From assembly GCF_018873765.1 (NCBI RefSeq), contig NC_057922.1, positions 10,739,563 through 10,803,562 on the forward strand: a stretch of 64,000 nucleotides of DNA, written 5' to 3'. Each line of letters opens with the position of its first letter. Position 1 is the first letter of the stretch. This DNA comes from Telopea speciosissima. Lineage: Eukaryota > Streptophyta > Magnoliopsida > Proteales > Proteaceae. Shown piece after piece: positions 7,571-60,933 of this stretch. The notes below the pieces were generated by a model that worked only from the letters and a program-made list of their open reading frames with translations, made no database searches and was not told the origin of the DNA. The position numbers and the translations under genes are program-made.

Positions 7571-8852
7571 TATATAGAAAGGGCAATTACTATCACTACC
7601 CTACACTTAGCCAATATTTACTAAAACTATCCTACCTTAAACTTCTTTTCTAAAACTACCCTGCTTTTAAACTTTTACATCTCCTTCTACCCTCATGTTT
7701 TTAAATACCCAGATTACCCTTTCTTTTCACCTAGTAACTTGCTAATCTATTTAACCTACCATTCATCTTCTACTTTTTACTATTTTTATCCTTAAAATAG
7801 TAAAAAATGAAGCATCCACCCACTTCTTCTCTCCCGTTATTTACGCCATTCAGTTTTTTTTGTTGTTTTTTCTTCAATTTTTTATTTAATTAATTTTTTA
7901 TTCAACATTTCATCCTCATCGTTCTTCAAACAGATCATAGTTCTAAGTATCGGTATCGTGTCGCCCGTATCGAACAATATACCAGTTTTGTTAGTCACTG
8001 ATACTGATACCATATCGATAGCATGGTACTGACAAGGGGTAAAATGGTCAGAGAACTCATTTTTTAAGAAAATTCAAGGGTAAATTTGCCCGATCCAGGC
8101 AGATACCATATCAGTATCATATCGGTTTTGTAGGTTACCGATACCCGTTCCAATACTGTGCACTAAAACCATGGAAGACTCTCATAAAAAATAGTAAAAA
8201 GTAAATTGAATAAAAAGAGGAAGAGAGAGAAGAAGTGGGGTGTTTTGAAGAGAGTCCATCTGTTCCATGGTTTGAGTGCACGGAATTGGAACGGGTATCG
8301 GTAACCTACAAAATCAATACGGTATTGACCTGGATCAGCTGTATCAAGCAAAATTACCCCTGAATCTCCTTTAAAATGAATTTTTTTTTACTATTTTACC
8401 CCTTTTTTGTACTGTGCTACCGATACGGTATCGACATGGTATCGATGGCTAGCAAAATCGATACGTATCACCGGATACGGGTGATACGATACCAATACTT
8501 AGAACCATGATCTGTTCGAAGAAGAACGAAAAGGATGAAATGTTGAATAAAAAATTAATTAAATAGAAAAATTAAAGAAAAAAAACCAAATGGAGTAAAA
8601 AATAGAAGAGAGAAGAATCGAATGGGTGCTTTCATTTTTTACTATTTTAATGACAAAAATAGTAAAAAGTAGAAGATGAATAGTAGGTTAAATAAATTAG
8701 CAGGTTACTAGGTGAAAAGGAAGGGCAATCTGGGTATTTAAAAATATGAGGGTAGAAGGAGATGTAAAAGTTTAAAAACAGGGTAGTTTTAGAAAAGAAG
8801 TTTAAGGTAGGATAGTTTTAGTAAATATAGGCTAAGTGTACTATATAGAAAG
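7571..8852. mobile_element. 1.26 kb foldback (long inverted repeat) element
   Basis: The body 7582-8841 is a giant imperfect palindrome. TACACTTAGCCAATATTTAC at 7600-7619 pairs with GTAAATATAGGCTAAGTGTA at 8821-8840, and the arms can be followed inward to about 8180 and 8245, leaving a loop of about 65 bp. The 11 bp TATATAGAAAG flanks both sides (7571-7581, 8842-8852), which fits a Mutator-like or foldback target-site duplication. The left arm has about 20 extra bases (GGCAATTACTATCACTACCC) missing on the right. No transposase is seen; the frame at 8163-8351 (-) spans the loop and is not supported. Confidence 0.8.
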
Positions 8853-9580
8853 AAAATATAGATTAGAATATTTTAAGGTATTAATTAGGCCTCGTCAGCA
8901 CTGTTTCGATTTCCACAGGTTTATTGCAGATTTGAACTTTGAAAAGTCAACCTTATAATAGATTTTGATTCTTGACCACCCGATTGAATCTTCAAAGTTG
9001 TCATACTTTTCCTCCACTACCATACACCATAGTGATCCACTTTTGCATGTAAGCACGTAACAAACTTTGGAATTTCGTACATCACAAGGAAACTGAAGAT
9101 CTCTTGATTTCATGCTCTGTTGCTCATCTTATAAAAATCATTTCATAAGATGGGGTCCATGTTGCATAGATCGGACGGCTAGGATCAATCTTAAGACCAT
9201 TTCACACACACATTGAGTGGTCGTGATCACAGAAGCACATAAACAAAACTATTTTATGAAGCATGGATTCACAGTTGTGATAGAGAGAGATCTTAAACTC
9301 CGATTTGAAAATCCAAAAAATACAGTTTGTTAGTAAAAGACTCAGAAATTTAATTCTGGTCTTTGGGGTTCTTCGATGATCACAAGGCAGCCACTCGTGG
9401 ATTCTTCGAGGTTATTTAAGCCCTTCTCAGCATTATCTCCAGGAGTCGGGCTCTTGTTCTTCTAAACTCTTCTTCTGGCAGTTACCAAAAGCTTCACTTC
9501 TTATTGAAACAAATCTGCAATCTTTCTGTAATTTGATTCTGTGGGTAATTCAATTTTTCTCACAGAGATAGAAAGAAGAG

Positions 9581-12971: not shown

Positions 12972-15782
12972 ATGGACAAGCAAAGAAGAGAAACTCCCTT
13001 CAAGAAGCCTTCTTCTTCTTCTTCACATATGGTAACTCTGTCGAGTAAGTAACCACCACTCATTTTCATTGTCTTCAACAACTTTAAGTTCATCTTTTTG
13101 AGTGTTCTAAGGTTACTAATGGTTTACTTCCCGCTACGAGTAGTTTCCCTTTTAAGGAACTAAACTACTATTTATTTCTTGGTTGCATTTCCCTGAACTT
13201 TTGGATTTCTTTTCTTAGTTCATATGGGTTTCTATGTGCTTTTCCCCTCTTCTTTTCTCCTTGTTGATGATTGAACCTTAATATTTAGGATATATTGGAG
13301 GCAAGAATCTTCCTTCTTAGAATATTTGAAGGGATTCTGTATGAGAAGGAAATGAACTTCGCTGCTTCTGATTTGCAACTACTAAAAGTATAAACAGAAG
13401 ATTTCTAGATTTTTAATTCTGGATTGAATACTATAGGACCCACCAAAGCACATTTAAGAAAAACTGGAGCGATGGAGAATTTTGACACTGAAGTCAATGA
13501 TTCAGCTCATGAGTTAAATGTGATGAGAGAAGAGGGAAGAGGAGTCTATAGGAGGAGCATCGATGATGGTGATGCAGGGGAAGGGGTGGGCAGTGGTTTC
13601 AACGCTATTGATTCGTCTCCAGTTTTTCTGTTTGGCAATCTTCTAAATGATTTAAGCTTATGTGAGAAAGAAATGGAAGGAGATTTCGGAGTTTCAAATC
13701 CAATACAATCGGGTGACATAGTGGAGGTGGGATGTTCAAAAAGTGTGGCTCATGGAGATTTCACTAACAGTAAATCACAGTTGCGTCACAGTAAGGTCAA
13801 GCAACTTCAGAGGAGACTGCAAATTCTTGAAGAAGATACTGAAGCTACGAAGAATGAATTCTTTGCCTGTGTAGATGAATGCAACCAGCTGTTGAATGAG
13901 GTAACCCAGAAGTTCTATACTGTACACCAATACCTAAGAAGTCCAATGATAGGAGAGGAGTGTGTTGAGGGAGCACTGATCCTTGGCACTGATAAGGTAT
14001 GGATTGTGTTCTGCTGCTTCTTTAGATTTCTCTTTCCTGTATTACTTTTGCAGCCTAAAAATTCCTTTTAGCCCTTGGTCACAGAATTAATCTGCTCTTG
14101 GTCTTTATAGGAATTAAAAGGTGCTATCTTTCAAAGGTTGCTTTGGAATTCTTTATAACACATGGCCATTTGTGAAATTTTCTAATTTTAGTTTTCATTT
14201 TTTGTCTTAATATGCTGACCAGTGAATTCATTCATTCATCCATGGAGATCCTAATTTCCCCTTGGTAACCAGAATGTGGTGATTGGCAGATTTTCCTACA
14301 TTTGATATCCTGGTGCAAATTATTTGGATGCAATTAGTTGTCATTTACCAAGTTATAAAATGTTCTTTATCAAACAAAAAGACAATATCTAGTAATTCTT
14401 CTTGGTTGGTAACAAAATATTGCATCCTCTGAGCAAACAAGAACTTAAATTTTGGGTTCTTGGTGAACAATGTACGAACATGAAAGGAACTTACAACACA
14501 TCTTGTGAGCAAACATGAGCTTAAATTTTGGGCTTTTGGAAAATAATGTACAAACATGAAAGGCACTTGACAACGCATCTTATGAGGAAACAGGGGCTTA
14601 AAATTTTGGGTTCTTGGAGAAAAATTTATGAACATGAAAGGAACTTAACCTTCCACAATCTGAAGGATCTTGAAGATTATAGAACAGCAAAGCAATTGAA
14701 GAACAATTGCAATTTAAACCTAAGTGTTGCACAATTAGAGGTGTGTAACCTCCACCTGCTTCAGAAGCAGGTAGTGCTAGCATTCCAATGTAAAGCCTGC
14801 ATTCAGAGGGGAAAAAATAAATCTGAAAACCTCTCTTCAAGGATGATCTCTTCTCTCAAGATTTTACTCCCGCACCCCCAAAAAAAAAAAAAACTCCTCT
14901 CAAAAGAACTTACAACACATCTTGTGAGCAAACATGAGCTTAAATTTTGGGCTTTTGGAAAATAATGTACAAACATGAAAGGCACTTGACAACGCATCTT
15001 GTGAGGAAACAGGGGCTTAAAATTTTGGGTTCTTGGAGAAAAATTTATGAACATGAAAGGAACTTAACCTTCCACAATCTGAAGGATCTTGAAGATTATA
15101 GAACAGCAAAGCAATTGAAGAACAATTGCAATTTAAACCTAAGTGTTGCACAATTAGAGGTGTGTAACCTCCACCTGCTTCAGAAGCAGGTAGTGCTAGC
15201 ATTCCAATGTAAAGCCTGCATTCAGAGGGGAAAAAATAAATCTGAAAACCTCTCTTCAAGGATGATCTCTTCTCTCAAGATTTTACTCCCCCCACCCCCA
15301 AAAAAAAAAAAAAACTCCTCTCAAAAGAATTTCCATTTGTCATCACCGTAGCAGGTCAGTTTCTCTTGCCATGCCTTCATTAGGAGTATGATGATGATGC
15401 TGCATGATTACACCTCATCTACCTGATTCATATGTTAAGTTTAGAAATATTTTCTAAAGTAGCATTGGACTTCCTATTGCATGTTACAAATGAACTCTTA
15501 AATCTCATCTCAGTACTTGCCTCTTCCCTTAGTTTTCTGTTGCATGCACGATCAGATTTCCATTTCTTCTATAATATTTCCTCAACTTTAAAGTTATTAA
15601 CCCAGATTGATTTTTACCATTGGCCATGTTATGTGTATTAACAGGGCAAAACCATGAGGACTGGTCTGCTACAAGTTCTATATCAAGAGCCAAATCCATC
15701 TCTTGTTACTAGAATTCATAAAGCAGATATCTTCACTTTGCAGGGCCCTCCAGGAGGCATGCAGAAATTGTTAAATCAGTGA
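12972..15782 (+). CDS. unrecognised coiled-coil protein (at least 3 exons)
   Basis: Exons 12972-13044, 13437-13996 and 15645-15782 join in phase (junction codon AGA, then phase 0) to give 256 residues ending at TGA. I do not recognise the family. The N terminus is a basic and Ser-rich leader (PSSSSSH), followed by an acidic disordered stretch. A heptad-like coiled coil (KVKQLQRRLQILEED onward) lies near residues 140-185, and a short conserved-looking tail begins GKTMRTGLLQVLYQEPNPSL. Intron 2 contains two nearly identical 419 bp blocks, each with a phase-0 candidate exon (14666-14770 and 15085-15189, 105 nt) followed by a GT donor. Including one or both would add 35 or 70 residues and extend the coiled coil. 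Exon choice is therefore unsettled. Confidence 0.65.
14400..14640 (+). repeat. three ~80 bp units inside intron 2
   Basis: A unit containing AACTTAAATTTTGGG, TTCTTGGTGAACAATG and GAACATGAAAGGAAC recurs about every 80 bases (near 14443, 14518 and 14594). The 419 bp tandem blocks that follow include the last two units, so a small array predates the larger duplication. Confidence 0.6.
14487..15330 (+). repeat. 419 bp tandem duplication with candidate duplicated exon
   Basis: Copy 1 is about 14487-14905 and copy 2 about 14906-15324. They differ at only a few bases (for example TTATGAGG/TTGTGAGG), in the C/A tract near the end (CGCACCCCC/CCCCACCCCC) and in A-run length, so the duplication is recent. 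Each carries a 105 nt phase-0 open stretch (14666-14770; 15085-15189) ending CAGAAGCAG before a GT donor; its translation (AKQLKNN..LNLSVAQLEV..LLQKQ) is coiled-coil-like. The exact acceptor is uncertain: TCTGAAG directly upstream is weak, and AAACAG about 80 nt upstream also works in phase. Confidence 0.85.
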
Positions 15783-23500: not shown

Positions 23501-26500
23501 GGAAAGTTGTGCTTATGTGTGTATGGATTTAATAAGATGATATTTTCCTCTTATGCTGATTTTTTGACACTTCAATTCTTGTAGGCTTCTCTTGGCTCCT
23601 CCTCTTATCCAAAATTTTGGCTGGGAATCTGTCTTTTACATATTTGGCATTTTGGGGTTACTTTGGTGAGTATTATTTCCATATAGTGCTTCTACCTGAT
23701 GTTCTAGTATAGTCTGAGTCGCGATTATTCAAGCAGGAGGGATCCTTGCATCTGTAGAATTAAAAAGAGAAAATTAAGCGGTTTATGTGGAAAGCAGTGA
23801 ACATTTTTGAAGTGTTGGAATTTAAATAGAATGAGTTTTAATTCATGTTGTTTCCAAACAATCATGAAGGTGTTTGGGATTTCAGTTTGTTAAAGAAGGG
23901 CAATCTTCATTTACTGGTCAAAACATATCACGTAAGTAACTGCTTCCTTATAGTTTTTCTGTTCTACTGTTGTAGCATTAGTGCTTTATCTCAGTCATTT
24001 GTGAGTGATTTCTGCTTAATCAGAAGGGGCCACATGAATAGTTTTGAACAGCGTTCAGTCACTGAATCTGCCATTGGAAATGCTAGTTTGAAATTCTCTG
24101 ACTTTGTTAAATAAAACAAAGACTATTGCAGATACTATACTAGTAGTCACCTTACTATTGAGAAACACAATAAAATTGATATAGGATGGCTAGCAATTGC
24201 TCCACTCGAGAATTTGTAATTTTCTTGACGTATTTCTTTTTCTTCTTTCCCTCCCCATAGTTCATGCCTTAAATGATTTTCTTGCAATTCTATTTATCTT
24301 TAGTAACTTCTGCAGAGCTTATTATTATTAAAAAACAATATACATGCAGATTCTTATGGTAATGTTAATCTGTTTATGGCATGATTATTGACAGAAATTC
24401 ATGGTTTGTTAGTTTAGGTTTTATCGGTGTACTTCTATTTCAAGATCCTTGTCCTCCTTGCAATAATTGATTCAGTTCATGGAACATGACTTGTATGTTT
24501 GGCAGGAAACTTCACAAGTATTGCTAGTTTTCCTTCTAACTGGGGGACAAAACCATGGAATGCATCCTTGAAAGAGTTGAGTGTCTCACTAAAGGTACAC
24601 CACAATTTTCTGTACTCTTCTTGAAAAAAAAAAAAAACTGGTCATGATTGTTTATGATCTAGTGTGTTAGAAATGTATGATGAAATTTCTTACTGGATAA
24701 CAGATACTTTGATTCCTTAAAATCCTTGAGGAAGCGATTGTTCACCCGAGAAGATGGGTCTAGGTAAGAGATCCAGTGTGGAAGACGGTTCCGTTGTACC
24801 TGAATAACATAATTATTTTATTTAATGGGTCATGATTCATGTAATAAAACTTGTTTTGGCAAACATGGGTAGCTCCATTCAATAGAGGATCCCACATCTA
24901 TATCACTAATCAAATTTCAGCTAAAAAAAAAAAAGGGTTGGGGAAGCATAGTTGTCACAGCGTCTAGGCAACCCAAGGCGTTGAAAGGGGCCTGGATGCA
25001 AGGCAACACCAACAAGGCGACCAAGGGTCCAAGGCGCCCACCTAGACGACCAAGATGCTCGGATGCCTTGACAGCTATGACGAGAAGTGCCTTAAAAGTG
25101 ATTTCAAAGTTGCACAATATTGCAGATATGCCATTAGATTCCATCAGTGAAATGGCATCCTTGTAACTTTATGAAACTTTAGCCCGCTCTTTGACAACTT
25201 TCAGTGATTGTTTTAGGTTGGCATTTGGTATTTGAGATGGGTGCAAGGTCCTCTACCAGAAGGACCCTCTTGCACCAACCTCAGTGTGTCATATGTGAGG
25301 GAAGAAAAAAAGGGTGACCTTGTGACTTGAGGCTTCCACAAAGTTTTGTGACATATAGTTTTCCTCTTAATTTCGACATATTCGAAAAAATTAGAGTTCT
25401 AATGTTGCAAAACTTCTTGTGAATTGTAATATTAAAACAAAATTTAATATTCTTGATCTTGTTTAAAGGTTGAAAAAAATTCGGAAAAAAAAAGAGTCAT
25501 TTCTCACCTAATTCCTGTATCACCTCTTTTGTAACATACTTAAGGAATTCATGTAAACTAACTTTAGAAATGTTGTGGAAAATGGAAATATGAATCTGAT
25601 TGTTTTGACTGGGTTTCTCTTTCTAAAAGGAACACATTATGTCATGCATTAAGTTGAACAATTCTCTTAATAGCCTGGTGCATATACTGTGTTTTCTGAG
25701 ATGTGTGGCTTTGCAGACACATCATTATACCCCAAACCCACATTATGGTTTTATTAACCTTCTGGATTTCTTTAATAGAGTGCTAAAATAGTGATTTTAG
25801 TTTCCTTTAATACTCTCAATTGTTTGGATAGCCAAAAGGAAAGGTGGATGACAGTTGTAATGAAGTGGTAAGATGTATTGTTTCAAGTTAAGGCACTAAT
25901 TGGAAGTTTGGGGTCCAAACAATCATTGGAACATATTCTTTTCCACAAAATTTGTAACACTTAAATTTGACCACCGATGTCAATGATAGTTCAACCATCC
26001 TGGTTCTCCAGTTCGACCATATGGGTCAGACAAGCCATTGGGAAATCAATGGTTTACTTGAAAAACAGGTTTGATGGCTGAACAACCCACTTTAAGGACC
26101 AGGTGTTGGGTCAATTGCTTTGACTGGCCAGGCCAGGTCATGGAACATGCTAGAGATGTATGAATATCACTGTTACATGGGTTTTGGGTGTGGTTCTGTC
26201 TTTTGGAGTTGGTTCCCTCTTACTGATAAATTTTTGGATATGGATGGATCTGCCTACTATGTTTTTTGGTAAATTCATACGGCACAAATTTTTTTTATAT
26301 ATATAAATCATACCTACCAATCGTATACAATTTCTAGGAAATTATTCTAGATGCACTTGATATTTATGTCCGAAATGAGAACAAATATATAAAAAGAAAA
26401 GTGTGCAATTGTAAAATGTTATCGTGTACTCAAAATTGTAGTGTTCAGGTAAAAAGAGCTTGGAACTTGCTTAACCTGCATGTGGCAGATATGGTACTGA

Positions 26501-37000: not shown

Positions 37001-40000
37001 ACCATCTTCTTTAAATCTTATCCCCTTGTATTCCTTTTGTCGCTAGCATCACCATCACCAATACCATCAACATCGCATCATCCACAACATCCACTTCTTT
37101 ATACTTTCCAATATCAAATAGAAATGGGGAAGTAGAGGTAGGTAAAGGAGATAGGAAGGGAATGACATCCGCATTCTTCATGCTAATACTCTCCCCCGAA
37201 TGGAATGGCGAGGGAAGAAGAAAAAAAGGAATAGACTCAAAGAAGGTGACATCTTTGGAGAGAAATCGCCTTCGGGAAGAAGGATGGTAGCACTTATACC
37301 CTTTAGTGGAATCGAGTAGCCTAAGAAGATGCACTTGAGAGCTTTGGGATCAAGCTTGGTGCGGGCTGATTTGTTGACATGTACATAACAAACACAACCA
37401 AAGAGCGCGTGGAGACAAGGAAAAAGCGAGGATTGAGGAGAAAGAAGAGCGAGGGGATTTGGAGCCAAGGAGTGGACTTGGCATCCGGTTAATAAGAAAG
37501 GCAGCGGTAAGAAGGGCATCGGACGGAAGGTCTTAGGCAGCGTGCATACCAAAGAGAAGGCCCCTAGTGATTTCCGCAAATGGCGGTTTTTGCGTTCACC
37601 ACCCCATTTTCTTTGTGGGGTGTCAACACAAGCGATTGATGGATGATGCCCTTATCGAGAAAGAATTGTTGGAGCCCCCATACATGTACTCACCCCCTTA
37701 TCGGATCTAACAATTTTGATGTGAGTACCAAACTGAGATCGATAAAGTGATAAAACTCCTTAAAAGCATCACAAACATCACTCTTTTGTTTTAACAAAAT
37801 AGTCCAAGTAGACCGAGAATAGTCATCCACAAATGAAACAAAATAACGAAAACCCGATAAGGAAGTAGTAGGAGAAGGCCCCCAAACATCAAGTATGAAC
37901 AAGGGAAAAAGGTGCGGAGATCTATTACCACGATAAGGATAAGATGTGCGACAATGTTTAGCAAAAATACAAGATTCACACTGAAAAACATAAGATGCGG
38001 GAAAGGAAGTAAACAAGTGGGGTAAGTGTCTCCTCATAACAACAAAAGAGGGATGACCCAAACGTTGATGCCAAAGCATAAGAGACTCAAAGTACTCCGG
38101 TCGTGCCGACCACAAACATAAGCTGGCGAGAGATTGAGCGGTGGCGTGGCTCAAGAAGATAGAGTCCTCCTTTCTCGGCCCCACGCCAATAACCCTCTTT
38201 GTCTCCAAATCCCGAAAGACACAATAAGAAGGAAAGAAAGTGACACAACAATGTAAGGATTTGGTTAGGTGACTCATGATAATAGGTTAGTAGCAAAGTC
38301 GGGAACATGAAGGACGGACTCAAGGGAAATAGAAGGAGTAACCCGCACATTACCCTTACCAGAGACAGAGGAGAAAGGAACCATCAAGAACCCTTACCTT
38401 GTCCGGCGAGAACAAATGGAATAGGAATCATAGAACGGGACATACCGGTCATGTGATCGGAAGCTCGAGTCAATGATCCAAGTGGATGCGTAGGGGTAGC
38501 GAGATGAGACTGCAGAGTGAGGCGAAGTAGTCAACCCTCCGAGCTAGAACCGATGGTGACCCTCCAAGGTGAGACATCAACCGACGTAGGGCTGCAATAT
38601 CATCCCGTGAGAGGGAATCGGGAGCGGTGCGGTCCAGTGGCTCGGACTCGGATGTCACGAGAATGAGCCTTAGCTCCCCCTCGCTTGCCTCCACGGGCAT
38701 GAGATGAACTACCACGCATACCAGGGGCTGTCCATGAAGATCCCAAGACCGGTCCTTGGTATGTCCAAGCTTGCCACAATGGTCACATTTGTATCTCTCA
38801 CGGCCTTTCCCCACTTTTCCGGTCTTTTTGGGAAGCTGGAAACAAGAGCAGAACCTCTCTATTGATGGTACAATATCCATAGTGGTCCTCCGGGTTTCCT
38901 CACTTTGCAAATAACACACATCATCCAGAGATGGAAATGGAGACCTCCCTAAGATTTCTTTGCGAAGGGGCTCATATTCGAGTTAAGACCACCAAGCAAA
39001 ATAAGGATCCTTTCCTTTTCTTGGCTCCTGTAGACTTTTGCCTGATCCTCGCATTGGACAAGCGGAGATTGGTATAATGATCATACTCCTCCCACAAGCT
39101 AATAACGAGTTGTAGTACTCGGATATACTCCTATCACCCTGTTTCATATGAATGATTTTTGGAGAATTTGATACACTTTCGTGGAATCTCCAACTCTATC
39201 AAAAATTCTGGATACACCATCCCAAATATCTTTAGCAGTCTCCTTACTCATAAATCTCCGACCTATCTCAGGTTTCATGGAAAAAATCAGCCAAGTCATG
39301 ACAGTGGAGTTTTCAGTCTCCCACTTGAGATAACTGCATCGATGTAGCGGGAGCCGTGATAGACCCGAATGTACCCCAACTTCCCCTACTACGTAGAGAC
39401 AACTTCACGGAGCAGGACCAATCCAAATAGTTGGTATTGTCCAACTTCACAAGCGAGATCGGGTGTTGGGGTTATCAAAGGAAACCATGGTTGGGAAACC
39501 ACCACTTGGGCTGCCGGATGTAATTGGTCCACGACCTCGAATCTTGTCCGACACAGTGGACATAATAGGCAAATACTTCAACAATCAATATAAATTGTTT
39601 TGCGCAAGTGGGAGTATACTCAACCCAAAACAAGGAGACAGACCAATACAAAATATGGTCCCAAATCAACCAAACCACAAGGCTGAGGCCAAGCCTAAAA
39701 AACAGCAAGCATATGAAGAGCAAAAACTTGTATAACTCAAACCAAATTCTGCTAGTAGCCAAGAACCTTTAGTCCATAATACCCAATAAGTGTATCAAGA
39801 TGTAATACTATCACATTCAGCCATCCAATACAGCAGACCTCGGAGAAGACAAAAAACAGAGCAGCCGATACCTGTGTTAGCAGTAGAAAAAAACAGTAGC
39901 AGTCCTCGACCCTCCACCTTCAAGGGCAGGCTCTTAGGGCTTCAAAAAGCACTCCCATACGACACAAATGGGACAAGTTCCAAGGTCACCAGCTGCCAAA

Positions 40001-48650: not shown

Positions 48651-48897
48651 TTTAAATGAACCCAGAAGTCATCTGTGTGTGCGTATGCACCCAACTCTCA
48701 CTTTTCAACATTTAAATGGTGAAATAGGATTCATGTAGCTGAAACATAACATAAGTTGGGGAATGGGTACCTTGAGATTTACCTTTGACATTTACCCATC
48801 ATGACAAACTGGTTAACTTAGCCCAATTAAGGATTATTTTTAAATAGTTTGACTTGTCAAGTTGTCCATCTAAATTGTTTAAGGTTAGAGCCCAATT

Positions 48898-50359
48898 AAG
48901 AATTGTTTTTCCAATACCTCCATTTTCAACCCAAAAGTAGCAATGAAAAAAGGAACTTGGACTTGGAACAGTATTGCTTCGGTGCTGCTTGACCTCAAAA
49001 AACTGGTGTGGAGGAGAGTTGGGAACGGTAGGACAACTCACTGTTGGTTCGACCCTTGGGTACCAACAATACCGGGCCGTTGTATTCCATCATGTTTTCA
49101 CAACCAATCCTTCAGCCTGGTAAAGGATCTAACTCTTAATTATAGGTGGAACTGTGATACCCTTGCACGATTTTTACCAAATCATCTGAATGTTGAAATT
49201 TCAAAGTTAAGCCTCTCTGAGTCTGAGGACCAATGGAGATGCTCCCTAACAAAAGATGGCAGCTTCTCTACCCGAAATACTGCCAACCTTTTAAATCCAC
49301 TGAGGCAATTCAAGCCCCTTGAATCCAAATGGTGGCGCTTCTTCTGGAAATTAAATATTCATCCGAAGTTTAAATTGTTTTTTTGGCGAGTATTGCATGC
49401 AAGTTTACCTGTCAAGAATACTCTCTCAAAGTGGACATTGATCGAGCCTACATGTGTTTTCTGTGGTGCTCATGACGAATCCCACTGGCATCTCTTTCTA
49501 TCTTGTGAATGGACTAAACGTATCTGGGCCTGCGGACCCCTCGGACTCAGAACTGAGCACCTAAGAAGTTCTTGTTTGGCACACCTTTGTGCCACAATCC
49601 TCCAATCCAAGACTTTTGATAATCCGACTGCCAGATGGTTTTTTTCAGTGTTTATTATTACCTGCTACTTCATTTGGAATGTAAGAAATAAAGTTATTCA
49701 TATGGTGGAGGTACCCAATCCCATCATTGTACTCAAACTTGTTACCAAATGGATTCATGATCTCCAGTTAAAACCTCCACTTATGCACAACCCCCCTCTT
49801 GACAATAGTATGCGTATAGATCATGAATTTGACGCAACTAACAGCAATCATACAATGAACTTACCTATTTTGTGTTGTGCAGGTCTCTCTGAACCAAATG
49901 TAGGCCTAGTAGGATGGGCTTACTGCATTTTGCTAGACAACCAGAATGTTCTAACATCTTCAGGGTTTGCACCTTCAACTGATGACATGCAGGCTGAACT
50001 AACTGGAATCTTACAGGGATGGACACATGCTACAAAAGATGGACTCCAACTAAAGGAGATTTGGATCACTAACCACAGCCTCTATGACGTTTTGAATGCT
50101 ACAACCAAGCAAAACTTACCTATTCCATGGCATCTTATACCAAACTTTTTTGAACTAGCAGAAAAAACATCAAACTTTATAAATGTACAGTTTAAACCTA
50201 AGAATAACATATAGACTAGTAGACTACGTTCCCTTGCCTCTTTCTTTATAACTAACAGGACTGTAATGCCCCCTTTCCTATATGATGTAAATATGTTTTT
50301 CTCTATCTAATAGTAATATAAAAATGCTTCCCATCAAAAAAAAAAAAAGAATTGTTTTT
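48898..50359 (+). mobile_element. 5'-truncated L1-type LINE with 13 bp target duplication
   Basis: The body 48911-50346 ends in an A-run (50336-50348). AAGAATTGTTTTT flanks at 48898-48910 and 50347-50359. The reading frame is open from the very first base of the body, so truncation fell inside ORF2. The paralogous segment near 45965 has the unoccupied site. Confidence 0.9.
48943..50214 (+). CDS. L1 LINE ORF2 C-terminal part: zf-RVT plus RNase H (transposon protein)
   Basis: A 423-codon uninterrupted frame. Residues about 128-195 form the reverse-transcriptase zinc-binding domain (WWRFFWKLNIHPKFKLFFWR; C171, C174, H181, C188). Residues about 330-415 resemble the LINE RNase H (VGWAYCILLD, AELTGILQGW, IWITNHS). 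The first ATG is internal; the frame continues to the truncation point at 48911, so this is the tail of ORF2 and not a host gene. The polymerase and endonuclease parts are absent. The open frame indicates a young insertion. Confidence 0.9.
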   Translation: MKKGTWTWNSIASVLLDLKKLVWRRVGNGRTTHCWFDPWVPTIPGRCIPSCFHNQSFSLVKDLTLNYRWNCDTLARFLPNHLNVEISKLSLSESEDQWRCSLTKDGSFSTRNTANLLNPLRQFKPLESKWWRFFWKLNIHPKFKLFFWRVLHASLPVKNTLSKWTLIEPTCVFCGAHDESHWHLFLSCEWTKRIWACGPLGLRTEHLRSSCLAHLCATILQSKTFDNPTARWFFSVFIITCYFIWNVRNKVIHMVEVPNPIIVLKLVTKWIHDLQLKPPLMHNPPLDNSMRIDHEFDATNSNHTMNLPILCCAGLSEPNVGLVGWAYCILLDNQNVLTSSGFAPSTDDMQAELTGILQGWTHATKDGLQLKEIWITNHSLYDVLNATTKQNLPIPWHLIPNFFELAEKTSNFINVQFKPKNNI

Positions 50360-50824: not shown

Positions 50825-50888
50825 GTGAGTTTTCTCCTTTGATATCTTTAATTGGGTTTCTTATTTTAATTCTTTGTTTTATCTTGTA

Positions 50889-53440
50889 TTTGTCTTGTAT
50901 AGAAACCATATCATATATTGGTTCATGATCAATCTTTACTTTCCTAGTTATGTAAAGAAGTTATCTTTTATTAAGAAACTATATATTGGATTTGTCTTGT
51001 ATAGAAACCATATCACCTATTGGTACATGGTCAATCTTTATTTTTCATAGTTATGTAGAGAGGTAAGAAACTATATATTGGATTTGCCTCGTATAGAAAC
51101 CATATCACATATCGGTTCATGATCAATCTTTACTTTCCTAGTTATGTAGAAAGGTTCTTTTTTATTAGGAAACTATATATTGGATTTGTTGTTGGACAAG
51201 TGTGTGTCCATCAAACCCGGTTCGATCCGGTTCAACCCGGTTCACCTTTGTATTGAACATTTATACATTTTAGTTTAATATTGTCACATGCGATATAAAT
51301 TTTTTGAGCATTATGCGTCCGTAAGTTATACTTAAAATGGTAGTCACGACTAGGGTTTGGGCTGGGCACCCTTATCATATGGTCGTCGCATTGGGTATGC
51401 CTAGACATGTGATGTCAGGGTACGAATGCGAGTGCTCACATGTTTGATGTGTGCATTGGCGAAGAATCTACTTTGTCGATTCCCTCATGTATTCGCGGAT
51501 GTAGGAAGGGATAGACATGTGTCACCGACCCTGCATCGGGGAACCCCGTCCACGCAAAGTGTGATCGTATTCTTTGGTTCATCAATGACCGAGACTCAAG
51601 CGAGTCAAAGCCGGTGTTCGGGAATGCGTGAACACTTTGTGAGTGAAGGAGTTATCCAACACGGTCACCACTCGCTCGATTGGGGAACACCAAGATAGAG
51701 ACTGTCGTGCATGGTCGGATCGGAATCGGATCCGATGCACGTTTTGGAAATGGTTTTGCAAAATTTATTTTACATAAAATGATACATTATTTATAGTTAT
51801 TTCAAATAAAGTGTTTTATCGAGTTTTGCGGGACCCAATCGGATGCACAGACGCTCTTATATGGACATGTACTATGGATTGGGGTTTGGCAAGTACATGT
51901 GTACATGCCCTAGATTCCATAATGATGGTGTTGATTAGTGGGGGGTTGTATATGATAAATTGTTATCATATAGGGAGTTATTTGGAATTTGTTAATTTAA
52001 TTGGCTCTTTATTTAATTAATGGATTTGGTGCTAATTATAATTATCCATTAATAATTAAATAAAGAATCTAATTAATACTTTCCTATTAGATTCTCGCTT
52101 CTTCACCTGTAGCACTTTGAGTTTAAACAGAATCGCAGACGAGAGAGAGAGAGTCGGACTCTCACTAAGGCTCTATTAAATCTATCTAGGATTTAATTAA
52201 ACCCTATTATTATAAATAGGGGACCAAAAATACGCAGAAAAAAAAGTTCTCCACGTTTTTGGAGCAGACACTCTCTCTCCTACGTTTTTGGTTTCTCTCT
52301 CTCCCTCTTGTGATCTCTCTTCTTCTTCTTGCTTCTCTCACTGTGTTTGAGAGTTAGGGTTTGTGAAACCCTAGATCTGGCTTGAGGAGTTTGAGGGCAT
52401 CCGGGATTGGCGTGTAGAACCTTGGTAGCACCATTGGAGGTTCGGATCGTTTGTTTGGAGCGCTCATTGGAGGAAGAACCACTATCTATTGGAGGAGCAA
52501 CACTTGAGGCTCACCAGGTTAGCAGTTCTTTATTAATTCCTTCTGTTCATTGATTATTAATATTTATGGGATGCGAAAGAAACTCGAATCGATTATTTTT
52601 CGCTGCGCATTCGAGTATGGGATGGATCCCTCTTGCCATGTGATGGACTAGAGACGAGTTTCTCCGTCCCTATTGTGATAATTAATTTTATGGAATGCAA
52701 TAGGGAAGGAGAAACCCTAATAGGGATGCACCAGGGTTCCCATGGGCGACCATGGGAAACACTAAAATTAAAATGGGGCACCCATGGGACACCATGGCTG
52801 ATTGCACCCAAGCGCAAAACCCTAAAGATAAATATCTTGGTCTCTCTAGGGATCCATGGTTTGACCCCGGACCGTTGTTTGGCAACATTTGTGTTGTATA
52901 GAAACCATATCACCTATTGGTACATGATCAAACTTTATTTTCCTAGTTATGTAGAGAGGTAGGAAACTATATATTGGATTTGCCTCGTATAGAAACTATA
53001 TCACGTATCGATTCATGATCAATCTTTACTTTCCTAGTTATGTAGAGAGGTTCCTTTTTATTAGGAAACTATATATTGGATTTGTCTTGTATAGAAACCA
53101 TATCACCTATTGGTACATGGTCAATCTTTATTTTTCATAGTTATGTAGAAAGGTAGGCAACTATATATTGGATTTGCCTCGTATAGAAACTATATCATGT
53201 ATCGATACATGGTCAATCTTTACTTTTCTAATAATGTAGAGAGGAGGAAACTATATATTGGATTTGTCTCAAATAGAAACCATATCACATATCGATTCAT
53301 GGTAAATCTTTACTTTCCTAATTATGTATTGAGGTTCTAGGAAACTATATATATATTGGATCTGTCTTGTATAGAAACCATATCAACAATCTCTACATTC
53401 CTAGTTATGTAGAGATTGATTTTCCGTCGATTTCACATGT
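50889..53440 (+). repeat. ~95 bp minisatellite split by a solo LTR
   Basis: About nine units start TAGAAACCATATCA (or TAGAAACTATATCA), at about 50901, 51002, 51096, 52899, 52989, 53095, 53185, 53275 and 53371. Each contains CATGGTCAATCTTTA..TTATGTAGAGAGG and AACTATATATTGGATTTG. The array lies between the orphan exon 1 and the intact TPD1-like gene. Confidence 0.85.
51185..52892. mobile_element. 1.7 kb solo LTR inside the minisatellite
   Basis: 51190-52887 begins TGTTGGACAAG and ends TTTGGCAACA, with TTTGT duplicated at 51185-51189 and 52888-52892. No primer-binding site, gag, pol or second LTR is seen, so it is a solo LTR left by recombination. TATAAATAGGGG near 52210, followed by CT-rich sequence, looks like its promoter on the + strand. 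Frames inside (51426-51698, 52633-52962) show no domain. Confidence 0.85.
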
Positions 53441-53542: not shown

Positions 53543-54034
53543 ATGGCAGCCCCTGCTGCTCTCAGAACATTATTCTGTGCAACTCTTATTCTCCTTCTTG
53601 CAAAGGGTGGGTTTTCTTCTCTTTTTTGACTTCAATGATATATTTTTGTCAATTCTTATACTAAAATTAGGTTTTGAATTGCAGGTTCTGTCCAGTGTAC
53701 TTTGGATGATATTGATATTTCACAAGATGAAACAGGAAAACAGGTGGAAGGGAAACCAGAGTACAAGGTAACTGTGAATAACGAATGCGAATGTACACAT
53801 TGGAATCTGACACTTTCATGCCCAGGATTTAATACAGTGGAGAAGGTTGACCCTTTGATCTTACGCCCAAATGGTAGTGGCTCTTGCCTCCTCAAGAATG
53901 GTACAGCTTTTTATGGTTTTGCCTCGCTCAGTTTCACTTATGCATGGGAGACTCCCACCTCTTTTACTCCAGAATCGTCTAATAATACATGTCCAGGAAC
54001 GAATAGGTTTGGTTTTAGAGATGGGCATTATTAG
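53543..54034 (+). CDS. TPD1-like secreted cysteine-rich protein (2 exons)
   Basis: Exons 53543-53606 and 53685-54034, phase 1, give 137 residues. Residues 1-22 are a signal peptide (hydrophobic core LFCATLILLLA). The mature part has the TAPETUM DETERMINANT1 family pattern: C26, then DIDISQDETG, PEYKVTV, NNECEC (C56, C58), LSCPGF (C67), C89, SFTYAWETP, and C124. That is six cysteines in the family order. TPD1 proteins are apoplastic ligands for the EMS1-type receptor kinase in anther tapetum specification; TPD1-like paralogs are less defined, so the role here is inferred only to family level. An AATAAA polyadenylation signal lies at 54078-54083, 44 nt after the stop. It is the only intact member of a local family with a pseudogene and an orphan exon upstream. 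Confidence 0.9.
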
Positions 54035-54329
54035 TGTTACTAGAGATCGAGATCATCTCATGATGTGAAACCACTGAAATAAAACAAAGACATTTGATTT
54101 ACAATTCTTTGAATATTGATTGATGTTGGATTCATGGTCTTCTGCAATTAGGGATATGTTATCCCTTAGGTTGGTAGCCAAATAAATGGGTATTTTGGAT
54201 GAGATTTTTTTATTTCATGGGGACAGAGTGATAATTTTACGCTCTAGGCATACGACATGGTGGTGTTCTTGTTCCGTTAATAATTATTAGAACCCACTAT
54301 ATATATAACCTTATTATTCTTTAAAAAGT

Positions 54330-54790
54330 GGACCATCAATTGCATTATCACAATAAATCTTCAATGGTTTTGAGATGTTATCTCCCACTTGAAGACCTAA
54401 AATGAAATTCCTCATCAACATAGCTTAAGATGTGGCATCATAGCAAACCACAAATTTTTATTTTCATGGTTGTGGTTGCACCGACTAGTAGAAAAATTCC
54501 CAAACTTACCACGCAACGAAATGTTGATCCCCTTTTTCTTATATGCAACGAGAGAGATAACTTGAAGTTAAGTTTCTGTTATCAAGGAATCCTATAAAAT
54601 CTATATTTGAAAACCCGATCATCTCAAAGTGGCTAGTCTGCCTATATGTGAGCATATGATCCTTGGTACCCGACAAGTTCCTCAAAATCTTCTTGATACC
54701 CTTCCATTAATGCTCAATTCCAAAGATCACTTTGGTATCTATCAAACATACCAACAGCAAAGAGATATCTAGATGAGTGCAATTACAAGC
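54330..54790 (-). pseudogene. copia RNase H fragment
   Basis: On the minus strand: ILRNLSGTKDHML near 54700, FEMIGFSNIDFIGF near 54610, then CYDATS and FILGLQVGDNISKPLKIYCD near 54410-54350. This is the RNase H end of a copia polyprotein, with stops. No LTRs located. Confidence 0.75.
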
Positions 54791-55610
54791 ATTAATTAAG
54801 CTAACCACAACAACATCATATGAAATATTCTTCAACATAATACACTCAAAAGGACACAAAAACTTTTTAATTTTTCTCCATTAACAATAATGCTGATCTT
54901 GGAGAACAAACTTTCATTTAAAAATATTTTCAACACCTTCTCTATGTATTTTTTTTATTATTTTTTATTTTGAGGTTATTAAAATTATTCGCTTTTTGTC
55001 AGTTTCAATTTGTAGATAATTGAAAAAATGAAATCGAATCAATTGACACCCTTAATTTTGAATGATCAAAATACATTGTTAAAGTTGAAATTACATGAGA
55101 TATTCTAATTGGGTTAAAATTTATTAAGATAATAAATGATGATGCAGTCAACACATCCACAAATTTTGAGTGTCAATGGATATACCATGTGGCAAACATT
55201 TGGGCCAAAATGAGAAGCTTCTCAAGATAGGCCATCTTGGATATCTTTGTCATTTCAATAATTATTTTTTGCTAAACAATCTCAAAAAAATTCCAAAGCA
55301 TTACTAATAGAGAAAATGAAGTGCATGAAGCCAGTGAAAAAAGAAAGAAACATGACAAGGCAAGCTCTGGGCTGCTCGTTGAAGCTAGTTTAATGTCACC
55401 CTCATGATTTTAAAAGGCCTCGTGAAGGAGTGGAGACTCCAATCCTTATATGGATCGCAGTCTCCTTCACTCATCAATGTGGGACTATCTTAGTCGCCCT
55501 TGAGGCTAGGTTTTAACTACAACACTAGCGCAGCTCATAACAATAATGACATTGTGTCATGGATGTGTATGTGCTAGATTGGGTTCTGAATTTGCAGATT
55601 TAGGAACCCT
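54791..55610. other. intergenic stretch
   Basis: No gene. Near 55395-55545 is a fragment reading TTTTAAAAGGCCTCGTG and CAATGTGGGACTA, typical of LTR remnants. Confidence 0.4.
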
Positions 55611-55617
55611 ACATCGT

Positions 55618-55644
55618 TGGGCCTATTGGGCTTGAGCTTGGGCT
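55618..55644 (+). promoter_or_regulatory. three site II (TGGGCY) elements
   Basis: TGGGCC at 55618-55623, TGGGCT at 55627-55632 and TGGGCT at 55639-55644, about 220 bases upstream of the CDC26 ATG. TGGGCY clusters are TCP-factor sites in promoters of genes active in dividing cells, which suits an anaphase-promoting-complex subunit. Confidence 0.6.
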
Positions 55645-55863
55645 CGGAAGAGTGGTTTTCGTGGAATACTTATTATCAAAAAGAGGAAACCAGGTAAGGC
55701 AGTGTTCTCGTTCATTCATCTTCATTGGAGTAAGGGTAACGGATCAAGTGTTCGAGTCTCAGTCACCAAACCCCATAGGTGGTGTGACTGTGATTGCTGA
55801 GTGCTTAAGCAATAACCACCACACCACCCAAATCCAAAACCAAAATTGAAGTCGCCAAGTGAG

Positions 55864-56058
55864 ATGCTGAGAAGAAAACCAAGCAAGATCGAGGTCAAGA
55901 TCGAAGATAAAGAAGAACTTGAAGAAGCCCGCAAGCGATCGGCCCCCAACTCCATCACCTCCACAGCCACCACTACCGCCGCCGCCGCTCTCCTCGATCA
56001 CCTAGACCGCAACAAAGACCCCAACACCAAAGCCCACCGTATCGGCCTCTCTAACTAA
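55864..56058 (+). CDS. CDC26: anaphase-promoting complex subunit CDC26 (upstream cistron)
   Basis: A single-exon frame of 64 residues. It starts MLRRKPSKIEVKIED and continues KEELEEARK. This is the conserved N-terminal CDC26 segment that threads into the APC6/CDC16 TPR superhelix and stabilises the APC/C ubiquitin ligase. An Ala/Thr-rich middle and a HRIGL tail follow. The start is the first ATG after the site II promoter; none occurs between 55621 and 55863. The stop lies 61 nt before the TTM3 ATG. In Arabidopsis CDC26 and TTM3 are made from one bicistronic mRNA (established knowledge), and the same order and tight spacing are seen here. Confidence 0.93.
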   Translation: MLRRKPSKIEVKIEDKEELEEARKRSAPNSITSTATTTAAAALLDHLDRNKDPNTKAHRIGLSN

Positions 56059-56119
56059 CCCTTTTTTTGTTTTTTCCCAAACCCTTCAACCACCAGGTAG
56101 CACTCGGTAGATCAGATAG

Positions 56120-56725
56120 ATGGAAGTAGAGGTGAAGCTACGCCTCCCTGACTCTGCCTCTCACCAGAAGCTTTCCGACCTCCTTAAACCCTTCCACATC
56201 ATCACCCACCTCCAAGAGAACGTCTTCTTCGACGGTGCCGCCGCTGAGCTCTCATCCAAGCGCGCTGTCCTCCGTATCCGCTTCTACAACAGCGATTCCC
56301 GTTGCGTCGTCTCTCTCAAAGCTAAAGCCGTTCTCGTTGATGGCATCAGCCGTGTTGAAGAGGACGAGGAAGATATCGATCCCTCCATTGGTCGTGCTTG
56401 TGTTGCCGAGCCATGGCGGCTTGGTTCTGTTGATTCTTCGAGGATCTTGAGGAGGGTCAAGGAGGAATTCCAACTCGCTAATAACAATTTCGTGTGTTTG
56501 GGTGGGTTTAGGAATGTTAGGTCGGTGTATGATTGGAAAGGATTGAAGTTGGAATTGGATGAGACCCAGTACGATTTTGGAACGTGTTATGAGATTGAGT
56601 GCGAGAGCGATGATCCTGAAAACGTCAAGAAGTTGCTTGAAGGGTTCTTGACTGATAATGGGATAAGCTATTCTTATTCGGAGGTCTCCAAGTTTGCCAT
56701 TTTCCGATCGGGAAAGCTGCCATAG
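56120..56725 (+). CDS. TTM3: triphosphate tunnel metalloenzyme 3, CYTH domain (downstream cistron)
   Basis: An intronless frame of 201 residues, the usual size. The N terminus is MEVEVKLRL, the ExExK signature (E2, E4, K6) of CYTH enzymes that bind metal and triphosphate in a beta-barrel tunnel. Other tunnel residues fit: LRIRF (R52, R54), SLKAK (K67, K69), the acidic run 80-87, LELDETQYDFG (145-154) and YEIE (157-160). Plant TTM3 hydrolyses inorganic tripolyphosphate and is cytosolic. The ATG at 56120 is the first one after the CDC26 start in any frame, so it could be reached by leaky scanning or reinitiation. Deduced from motifs; high confidence for family. Confidence 0.95.
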   Translation: MEVEVKLRLPDSASHQKLSDLLKPFHIITHLQENVFFDGAAAELSSKRAVLRIRFYNSDSRCVVSLKAKAVLVDGISRVEEDEEDIDPSIGRACVAEPWRLGSVDSSRILRRVKEEFQLANNNFVCLGGFRNVRSVYDWKGLKLELDETQYDFGTCYEIECESDDPENVKKLLEGFLTDNGISYSYSEVSKFAIFRSGKLP

Positions 56726-57050
56726 AAAGTAAAGCAATGGTACATTGTTGAATTCGAATTGGTTTTCTTATGATTCTTGTTTGATTAGGGTATTTCCAAA
56801 AAAAAAAACCTGCTTTTCCCAAAGTGCTGATGAATTGTTTGTTCCGTTGTTCGTATACTTATCAAAGAGGGGAAAATTTGTTGTTCACTTGTTGGAATTT
56901 ACACTTGTTCGTCAATAATTACTTTAGTCTTGATATGTTATGTGCTTGTTCCAATTTGAGAGCTCACCTGAGGAGCTTAATTCCAACTCTATTCAGGAAC
57001 CTTCTTTTCAAGTTGTTGGAAAAATGTTGAGGATCTTGAGGTGGTTTTAC

Positions 57051-57681
57051 TATAGTTGTCAAAGCGTCACCCAGCATTTAGGTGGGTTTCCAAGGGCATG
57101 GCGGTCCCCCACCTTATTCTAACTTAACAAGGCAGGCGCCTTGGGAACTCCTTGGTGTCGCTTAGGACTCTTTAGGACACGGTCATTTTTTTTATTTTTA
57201 TTTTTTACATTCCCCCCCCCCCCCCCTCCCCTCTAAATAATGTATGTTTCTAATATTTTTATTGGCTTGTGTGAAAGTTTGTGTGTAGGTGAGAAGCATG
57301 GGATCATTTAGTACCCAAAAAATTAAGAAAGAAATCAAACTTCACTAGGTCACTTCTCTTGTTTAGTTACGTTTTTCCTTCTAAATAATGTTGTTTCTAA
57401 CATAATGTTATTGTTGTAATTTTGTAATGCTGTAATGATGTTGCTACATAATAAATATAGTAGAAAATTAGTGCATAGATTCAATCTGTATTGTTGTTGC
57501 TGTAATGCTGTAAGCAGGAGTATACTATTGTTATATTAGATATAATAACATATAATCGATACATAAAAAAAATGCTACAGCGCCTAGGGTGTCTAGGAGA
57601 AGCCTAGGCGGGCGCCTTATTCCCTAAGTGCTTAGGTGGCCATCCAACGCCTTGGGTCACCCAAGCGCCTTGATAACTATG
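57051..57681. mobile_element. hAT-like element, CATAGTTGTCA family
   Basis: Starts TATAGTTGTCAAAGCG and ends GCGCCTTGATAACTATG. The interior has a C-run near 57213-57227 and TGTTGTTGCTGTAATGC words, echoing the C-run in the 29.5-30.7 kb copy. The target duplication is not clear. It lies in the 3' region of TTM3. Confidence 0.7.
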
Positions 57682-57699
57682 TGTTTCTACTTTTGTACC

Positions 57700-58925
57700 T
57701 TTTTGGGGTACTAAGAATTAGTTCATTTCAAAGTGAAAAGGTTTTAATGTCGGATTTGTCTGAATGACACCTCCATAGGTGAAGTTTGGTCATGCTTTAT
57801 TTACGCTTCATTTATTCAGCGTAGTATTTCAAGATAGAGGTAGAAATGATCATTTGACGCAAAAAAAACCAATACACCATTTACTACTGTCTCAAATCTA
57901 CAGAAAAAACCTTTCCAGTCTCAGATTTGCAACCATTATCTCTGTAAAAAGGTCCTATCAATGCGTACTAAGAAGCATTCCACACTGGAAAGCCTTGGGC
58001 AATTATCCGACAATTTGATTGTCATCTTCATCTATTTCATCATGCCTTTCAAGCTCTTTCCCTCGAGATCCCAATCAATCTGACAGAATATTAGGGGCCA
58101 CCGGCAAGGTTGGAGCAATTTTTAGGTCAGTGGTAGTGGTTTTTATGAGCCTTCAGAAAAACCATAAGAATGTAGTGGAGGGTGAAAAGTGATTGAGATG
58201 ATATCATCGGAGTCTTGGTGGCAATGGTGTTGACCATTTTCTTTCTCAAGTAAAACTATTAGAAGATAATTAGAGGAGAATGAGGGAAATGATAACCTCA
58301 GTTTGTTTGGATCGTTAATTAGTTGCAGAGATCCAGTCAATAACGCGATATTAACCTGATATTTCCATCATTCTAAGTGTTCTAATCTCTGTTGCGGTCA
58401 TCCCTGTTGCCGTTACTCTCGCAGACATTGAGAGGTGAGTTGAGGAGAGAGATGGATGAAAGAAGAGTTGAGATGAAGAGGAATTGCAGAGAAAAAAAAT
58501 GCACCATCGAGGAAAGGGTCCACACATCTGTGGAAGAGATAACGGGGATAATGGAATTACTATGTTAACCCTCTTAAGCAATTACTGTACACTAGAATGA
58601 AGGGTAAAAAGAAGATACAATGAAAACTAATTTAAGACCTCGCAAGTTGTCAACAAGAAAAATCCTTCGATTTATCTCTGCAAAAAAGAGTAAATATTGT
58701 AACATCAATGTAGCACCCTTTTGCAGGCTATTTAGTTCATCTCTGTTACCACAGTGAAAGTTCAGGAAGTTTAGAATGATCTGAAATACCACAAATTTGG
58801 TATGCTCAGAATGAGACCCCTACTGTAGCATACATAGCATCTGTTGAAGACAGGATGAAGAAATATGTCCCTATACTTATGAAAGCACCCCATGAGGAGG
58901 ATAGATGTGTCCCAATAAAACTCAA
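57700..58925. other. gene-free stretch
   Basis: No supported gene. The frames 57779-58018 (+), 58143-58340 (-) and 58351-58581 (-) show no domains. Confidence 0.4.
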
Positions 58926-58929
58926 AAGT

Positions 58930-59290
58930 AAAATCCTATAAGAACTGTAAGACTAACAATATTGTATGAAGCTAAATGTTTGGTAACAACACAAACATAA
59001 TAAATGTAGCTGAGATGGATGAGTGGAAAAACTAGCAGAGACAAAATGAGAAATGAAAAAATTTGGGATTTATTAGGAGTGGCTCCAATAGAGGTTGAAA
59101 GAGAGAAATTTTATGTGGCATGGGAATTTGCAATGGAGGTTTTGAGTGCACTGGTAAGAGGACTTGATATAATGCAAGATTGGAGGAGTTAAAAGACCAC
59201 AAGTGTGGGTTAAACAAAGTTGAATGGTGAAATAGGATTCATTTAGCTGATCCCATTTAGTTGGGAAAATGATTAGTTGAGTCGAGTTAT
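58930..59290 (+). pseudogene. RTE-type LINE 3' end fragment
   Basis: Plus-strand words LYEAKCL near 58965, MSGKTSRDKMRNEKIWDLLG near 59018 and LNGEIGFI near 59220 follow the C-terminal order of RTE reverse transcriptase ORFs. CCCATTTAGTTGGGA is the usual RTE 3' terminus. Broken by stops and shifts. Confidence 0.72.
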
Positions 59291-60933
59291 ACTTACAAAA
59301 GCACTATCTGCCCTTCAGTTTTTTAATTCTGACTTGTTCCTATGCATTCTGCTCTAATTTTGTGACTTTAGTTCATTGTAAAGTATCATGAAATTAGGAC
59401 ATGTTTGAAGACAAAGGCCCACCTCCAATGATTTCCAGCGAACATAGTGTTTAAAGACTGATTAATTACCAAACCATCATGGTACATGCTTCCAATTTTA
59501 CCCAGTGCAACCCAATTGACCAGTCAATAATATCTGCAGAAAATAAAAGAAATTTAATGTAATGAAAGAAAAAAAAAAAAAACCAAAGGTGTCTTTAGAG
59601 ATGGTACAGAGGGTGGGTAGTATTTAGTTTTTGACGAGGCTGATGGTGTGATTCTCTTCACTCATGCTGAGCTCCTTGCTTTTAGCCAGGGGCTGAGATT
59701 CAAGTTATCATCAAGAGGCTGAGTTGAGTAATAGAGATCATGGTGATTGGTGCATATCACCAATCCGAAATCATAGGTGCTTGCAAAATAAAATTTGAAG
59801 GTATGGTCTCTCACTGTTTGTCTATCCCTGCAGCATTACAAGGAGGAAATGCATATTACATATTCAATAATTTGGTCAATATATGTGATTATGATCCCAC
59901 CACTAGTTTTTCTACAAGTTACTGTAACATTTTCTGATTTATGCAATTTTCTACATGATTAGCATTCACCATGATCAATAAATTTCCTCTTCTGTCTCCC
60001 TCCCCCAAAGAGAAAAAAATGTAGTTTTGCTTTGAGATAAAAATAATTTCAACTGCCAATTATGTTTGATCAGTTTGGATCGAAGGATGTATGTAAATTG
60101 ACTCGGCTTTTTACATTTCATTGGTTGATTCGATGTTTATCAGATACTGTGAAGAAAGCTTCCCTTTTGATTACGTTGCATTTTTATCTTCCCTCAAACG
60201 AGATCAATTAACCTCTTCCTAAAGTTCGAGTTAGATTCTTTCTATCATTTATTATTTTGACATAAACTTACAACCTTCTTCTTACCCTCTTTTGGCAGGG
60301 TCTGTTATTCATTCTGCTGGATTATTGTGGATTCCTGTTAGCGTGGAACTGATAAGTTTTATTGGTGATGAGATGTGATAGCCAATAAGTTTAATAAATT
60401 GTGATCTTTCTTGTGCTGGCAATTCAATACACACAAATTTCTTTATGTTTTCCGCTTCCTAGCGGCTCTGTGTTGACCGTCAAAACATGTCTTCAATTCT
60501 ACAGTTGCTATTTTATTGATTTCAATTATTTTTAAGATGGTGCTGATCATCCTTTTGGCATGGGGTTACTTACGTTGGTTTAATTGGATGGGAAAATATA
60601 ATAGCTGGAGGTGGAGGTGTCTTTTCTTTCTTGACCATGTTTTCCTTTAGTCATGGTCAAAGGAGATCGATGCCTTCGGATGGTGTCCATAGGGTATAGA
60701 GGAACAGTGGGGGTTATTATCGATCATTTGTAAATATGAGGCAGATGTTAACACCATTGAACTTTGTAAGAGAGAAGAGGGAGGGTGGAAGTTGTTTTGA
60801 GTTATGCAATCTAACAGGCCTAACAAGCAAGCACCGTTTGCACCTCCCCACTGAGGGATGAAGGCCATAGGGATGAATGTGAAAGTCCAGAAGAGAACAT
60901 GGTTCAAGGAATCAATATCGAATTGGTCGATTC
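59291..60933. other. gene-free stretch
   Basis: Nothing firm. A weak LINE RNase H-like phrase (HAELLAFSQGLRF) occurs near 59665-59705. The frame at 60647-60907 (-) has no domain. Confidence 0.35.

Follow-up and report, generated by a model that had tools for sequence, protein, structure and literature searches.

A probable bicistronic CDC26-TTM3 locus in Telopea speciosissima, with an intact duplicate and a relic elsewhere in the genome

The CDC26-TTM3 pair was listed in 2012 as a putative dicistronic CPuORF (HG30, At2g11890) (PMC3426882), and the demonstration in 2019 that it is a functional bicistron in Arabidopsis is recounted in PMC11291117, PMC9768141, PMC7943633, PMC6973038 and PMC11062462. 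The bicistronic mRNA, its two products and conservation of the arrangement in plants and green algae are described in print (PMC11291117, PMC9768141, PMC7943633, PMC6973038, PMC3426882, PMC11062462). As related in PMC11291117, NMD limits the Arabidopsis CDC26-TTM3 mRNA, and translation of TTM3 raises CDC26 output, pulling the mRNA into polysomes. The same source includes CDC26-TTM3 in a Chlamydomonas bicistronic set and backs leaky scanning with mutational tests in the alga Auxenochlorella, made on other loci and on a synthetic one (PMC11291117). The TTM3 phosphatase is described as seemingly dispensable in Arabidopsis under favourable conditions, and its lasting linkage to an APC/C subunit that is essential is a puzzle.

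Here we describe a CDC26-TTM3 locus within a 64,000-nt stretch of the Telopea speciosissima genome (contig NC_057922.1; hereafter the window), whose features are collected in Table 1. A listing of ATG ORFs over 54000-60000 of the window placed CDC26, running from its ATG at 55864 to a TAA ending at 56058, ahead of TTM3 on the same strand with a separation of 61 nt. These coordinates confirm the one-direction, two-cistron layout proposed in an earlier note on this DNA, and the gene identities given there also hold, on Pfam and solved-structure matches for both ORFs. The first ORF matched Pfam family ANAPC_CDC26 (PF10471, E = 8.7e-06, 27 bits, cut-off 24.5) and begins with the segment MLRRKP. 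Four solved CDC26 sequences matched its N-terminal 24-25 residues (E from 0.0016 to 0.015), among them 3hym_A over residues 1-24 (E = 0.0016); a fifth structure match (E = 0.68) is an unrelated fusion. The second ORF matched the CYTH domain (PF01928, E = 6.4e-21) and four solved chains, named TTM3, TTM3-like, CYTH-like phosphatase or adenylate cyclase. These included 5a5y_A (E = 1.5e-69), a solved TTM3 of Arabidopsis origin, and the top match 6yp4_A (E = 7.8e-76), a chain called adenylate cyclase by its depositors. At2g11890 is likewise labelled adenylate cyclase in a table of PMC3426882. A scan of viral contigs with TTM3 and CDC26 found no relative.

Table 1. Features of the CDC26-TTM3 locus, in window coordinates
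Feature	Positions	Strand	Evidence
Three TGGGCY motifs (55618, 55627, 55639), likely promoter element cluster	55618..55644	+	Motif map; relic alignment on contig C2
Candidate ATG-free leader	55646..55863	+	0 ATG against 3.33 expected, P = 0.0088
Splice-donor-like ACCAG/GTAAGG	55694..55699	+	Rank 2 of 3391 GTs on the window + strand
CDC26 (APC/C subunit), first cistron, 64 aa	55864..56058	+	Pfam PF10471 and solved chain 3hym_A
Acceptor-like stretch: two CTAAC, T tract, CAG/G ending 56096	56051..56096	+	Rank 821 of 3826 AGs
Gap, 61 nt, T-rich tract	56059..56119	+	Length and sequence unlike the duplicate's (41 nt)
TTM3 (CYTH/triphosphate tunnel metalloenzyme), second cistron, 201 aa	56120..56725	+	Pfam PF01928; 5a5y_A and 6yp4_A

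The 822.9-Mb assembly was searched with the DNA of window positions 55500-56800, which found three places: itself, a locus on contig C2 (L002, 81% match) and a 138-nt piece on contig C1 (L003). A search with the TTM3 protein found two, the window and C2, each open over 201 aa. The C2 locus consists of a 60-aa CDC26 beginning MIRRKP, a 41-nt gap and a 201-aa TTM3 that is 87% identical to that of the window; order, strand and short gap are kept, and no ATG lies between its two starts. For TTM3, dN/dS between the loci was 0.114 at a dS of 0.524 (201 codons), and for CDC26 it was 0.164 at a dS of 0.643 (60 aligned codons), each value being one pairwise comparison; these ratios indicate that both peptides have been retained by selection. 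The piece on C1 (G000:C1:30303316-30303453) is a degenerate TTM3 N-terminal fragment, 73% matching over 138 nt, and an open frame resembling a retrotransposon reverse transcriptase was seen by eye near it.

C2 block and window are collinear, with matches in the same order at 9.2-15.6, 55.8-57.1 and 58.7-59.9 kb of the window; BLAST returned 54 DNA matches between the two, dispersed repeats included. Window position 48.2 kb also matches C2 in order, but at two places, and may be a repeat. Flanking frames at 9.6-11.2 kb gave a pooled dS of 0.48 (216 codons, five chosen matches), other single flank matches ranging from 0.04 to 0.86 with wrong frames among them. Since the block is collinear and the flanks are of similar dS, the locus pair most likely arose by segmental or whole-genome duplication, and the linkage of the two ORFs would have persisted in each locus thereafter. 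Within the collinear part of the window, 14483-15201 holds a direct duplication of 300 nt (99% identical, spacing 419). Both of its copies match a single C2 stretch (62612660-62612989), and the direct duplication therefore probably postdates that of the block.

Similarity between the two loci, as found by BLAST, begins 7 nt upstream of the CDC26 ATG. No significant similarity was found between their leaders (local score 18 against a shuffle mean of 18.6, P = 0.68; under other scores, 39 against a mean of 25.5 and a maximum of 45) or between their promoter regions (41 against a shuffle mean of 36.9 and a maximum of 60). In the 3′ flanks the alignment is clear, scoring 129 where shuffles reached at most 34. 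The gaps differ, the T-rich tract of the 61-nt window gap being missing from the 41-nt gap of the duplicate, which is C-rich instead. The 3′ flank of the window TTM3 also holds, at 57640-57681, a repeat ending 'gccttgataactatg' that is inverted relative to 24947-24988 (I11); the latter belongs to a family that recurs at 22064 and 29453 and, inverted, near 31547 (D17, I2, I7, I8).

Contig C2 further carries a relic (G000:C2:62625391-62625454, L008:8392-8455) 11.8 kb upstream of its intact copy, at a position collinear with the window locus. It matches window 55834-55901 (79%, E = 8e-8, BLAST) and comprises the end of a window-type leader and the first CDC26 codons, with ATA in place of the start ATG. 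A wider alignment of the relic scored 95, the best of 200 shuffles reaching 66, and window 55300-55690, the promoter region, scored 75 on C2 against a maximum of 62 in 200 shuffles. The leader alone did not align significantly with the relic (40 against a shuffle maximum of 43), and a search downstream of it for remaining CDC26 or TTM3 found none (56 against a shuffle maximum of 77). The intact C2 copy has apparently become separated from the ancestral promoter, and the intervening 11.8 kb include an open frame that by eye resembles a LINE-type reverse transcriptase. An older tandem duplication is a possible source of the relic but not a needed one, the dS of CDC26 and TTM3 (0.52-0.64) lying near the pooled 0.48 of the collinear flanks. 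Upstream of its lost start the relic holds 9 ATGs within 471 nt (4 in the last 220), against none in the window leader. Release from constraint would look like this, though sites cannot be paired on so weak a leader alignment and the relic stretch is the longer of the two.

The TGGGCY cluster that had been reported upstream of CDC26 is present, and the upstream region that bears it has left a relic in the C2 block that can still be recognised. We take TGGGCY to be a site II/TCP-type element. Two further motifs lie upstream at 55201 and 55368, and counts over the window as a whole are 23 (+ strand) and 16 (- strand). An Rfam search over 50-60 kb of the window brought no family to its gathering score, and ARAGORN found no tRNA in the window. 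When the leader DNA was searched for as a suspected dispersed repeat only itself was matched in the genome, by a search of low sensitivity, which skips very common words and did not list the C2 relic found by BLAST. Repeats are found elsewhere in the window. Eight imperfect ones of 90-100 nt form two clusters at 50867-53398 (families D1, D2), and 7587-8855 holds an inverted repeat of 225 nt, 92% complementary and 819 nt apart, with more inverted repeats within (I1, I3, I4), which is MITE-like or a hairpin locus. A domain scan of 7 of the 13 long frames of the window identified transposon remnants at 48889-50211 (+), where an open frame of 441 aa carries a zf-RVT domain, and at 37181-38286 (-), where SH3_retrovirus and gag_pre-integrs domains occur in two open frames.

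Around the locus, ATGs occur at 55569, 55864, 56120 and 56340. This map bears out the earlier observation that no ATG lies in 55621-55863 and that none, in any frame, falls between the starts of CDC26 and TTM3; the ATG-free run before CDC26 is in fact longer than had been noted, extending over 55572-55863. Dinucleotide shuffles of 55621-55863 contained 3.82 ATGs on average where the leader has none (P = 0.0067). For 55867-56119, between the start codons, only 0.60 were expected (P = 0.50), and permuting codon order likewise gave 0.60 (P = 0.49). Over 55621-56119 as a whole there is one ATG, the CDC26 start, against 4.85 in shuffles (P = 0.018), a signal that comes from the leader and not from the inter-start region. 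The leader is therefore moderately ATG-depleted, whereas the inter-start stretch is no poorer in ATGs than its composition gives. Spacings of at least 240 nt between successive ATGs are not rare within the window, with 14 cases on the + strand, two of which are those described here, and 18 on the - strand.

The absence of ATG within CDC26 is moreover a property of its peptide. In each of four synonymous-codon nulls, with 20,000 draws apiece, the mean number of ATGs was 0.0 (P(0) = 1.0). Apart from its initial Met the peptide contains neither Met nor Cys nor Trp, and no Asn, Asp, His or Tyr followed by Val, Ala, Asp, Glu or Gly, and therefore an ATG cannot be written in any frame whatever the choice of codons; the peptide of the duplicate is equally unable to encode one. 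Shuffling of residues yielded such an ATG-proof peptide in 1.7% of cases for the window CDC26 and 7.0% for the duplicate, and in TTM3 none of the 136 stretches of 64 aa tested in each copy is ATG-proof. This feature may reflect selection for scanning or chance composition, two related copies being too few to decide. Being forced by the peptide, the absence of ATG within CDC26 is not independent evidence for scanning. Of the ATG-free layout that the earlier note had called the one expected for leaky scanning or reinitiation, the leader part is depleted beyond chance and the inter-start part is not. Leader depletion is not specific to bicistrons either, because the leaders of algal single-ORF genes are ATG-poor too, with reported medians of 0.47 and 0 observed/expected (PMC11291117). 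A comparison of ATG depletion across genomes had also been proposed; run on the duplicate alone, it found the inter-start stretch ATG-free but not the leader, where an ATG 61 nt before the CDC26 start opens an overlapping out-of-frame ORF. Either transcription of the duplicate begins downstream of this ATG, or its leader breaks the ATG-free rule.

Taken together, we regard the window locus, with a probability of about 0.7, as a plant CDC26-TTM3 bicistronic locus (CPuORF homology group 30) with one promoter, one mRNA and leaky scanning to TTM3. In this best explanation we infer the promoter position, the single mRNA and the leaky scanning. A single promoter around or just upstream of 55618-55645 would drive one capped mRNA, on which the majority of scanning ribosomes would begin translation at the first AUG, producing CDC26. 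Some would bypass that AUG, whose context (by eye, G at -3 with C at +4) is non-optimal, meet no further AUG for 253 nt and then initiate at the AUG of TTM3, whose context by eye is T at -3 with G at +4. The duplicate reads G at -3 and A at +4 for CDC26 and C at -3 and G at +4 for TTM3, also by eye, so that a purine at -3 for CDC26 and a pyrimidine for TTM3 are common to both copies; a pattern of weak ORF1 and strong ORF2 starts is not apparent. That two ORFs have been kept ATG-free between their starts despite differing leaders and gaps favours scanning over an IRES, and an IRES borne by the gap was set aside as unlikely because the gap sequence is not conserved between the copies.

Among the alternatives, the one that survives best, although we consider it unlikely, is alternative splicing in which the donor at 55694 joins the gap acceptor at 56096, removing CDC26 and making TTM3 an ordinary first ORF. 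Under approximate splice-site weights, this donor ranks second of 3391 GTs, and the gap region offers two CTAAC, a T tract and CAG/G. However, the gap acceptor ranks 821 of 3826. Within L002:1150-1750 of the duplicate no donor would rank above 97 of 3391, and the AG preceding the TTM3 start there would come 1499 of 3826. As the duplicate has no equal donor in that interval, a splice mechanism is unlikely to be common to both copies and would be specific to the window copy. The strong donor at 55694 suggests splicing within or out of the leader, and it may serve a leader intron instead, an alternative acceptor inside the leader at 55762 ranking 804 of 3826. Somewhat less probable is reinitiation, by which ribosomes finish CDC26, resume scanning past its stop and restart at TTM3. 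Short gaps of 61 and 41 nt with no ATG intervening would suit it, but a first ORF of 64 codons is long for it, and for other gene pairs in algae ORF2 output is described as responding to ORF1 start strength in the opposite direction to the one it predicts (PMC11291117). Of the "leaky scanning or reinitiation" suggested for this layout, the layout is compatible with the former, and the latter is the less likely of the two. More doubtful still is a divergence between the two loci in how the two proteins are balanced, the window copy having kept the ancestral promoter and leader and being able to splice from 55694 to the gap for a TTM3-only mRNA, and the C2 copy, its promoter lost, having gained a new short leader and a strict two-protein mRNA.

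Least probable of all is a separate TTM3 promoter, with an internal transcription start within CDC26 or the pyrimidine-rich gap: plant start-site Y patches are pyrimidine-rich and the gap tract resembles them, but the T tract is not conserved, the shorter gap of the duplicate being C-rich. The bicistronic mRNA reported in Arabidopsis also speaks against it (PMC11291117, PMC9768141, PMC7943633, PMC6973038). The earlier argument that there is no room for a second promoter is nevertheless unsupported, because promoters may sit within coding sequence.

The locus can be set beside the systems already described. The link to Arabidopsis AtCDC26-AtTTM3 (At2g11890, CPuORF HG30) holds: a CDC26 peptide lies upstream of TTM3 in both, the first ORF is of nearly equal length (64 aa here and 65 aa as given in PMC11291117), and the window TTM3 is strongly similar to the solved TTM3 5a5y. 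In contrast to the Arabidopsis locus, there are here two intact loci and a relic in one genome, and leader and gap sequences differ between the two copies. The leaky-scanning bicistrons described for green algae (Chlamydomonas, Auxenochlorella; PMC11291117) are alike in their short ORF1, few ATGs before ORF2 and short inter-ORF region. However, the trend to weak ORF1 and stronger ORF2 contexts reported for them (PMC11291117) is not evident here at -3, and the purine on ORF1 and pyrimidine on ORF2 in both copies speak against carrying the algal model over unaltered. Ordinary inhibitory uORFs also place the first AUG upstream of the main ORF, but the upstream ORF here encodes a conserved APC/C subunit. 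Leaders that do not align and gaps that differ, beside an order, closeness and lack of intervening ATG that are kept, hint at which features are constrained, and the two copies lend themselves, as a natural pair, to tests of leaky scanning in a flowering plant. Within the open-access literature searched, the retained locus pair and its relic may be unreported. The CDC26-TTM3 arrangement itself is already known; what is new here is a duplicate that keeps both ORFs at low dN/dS.
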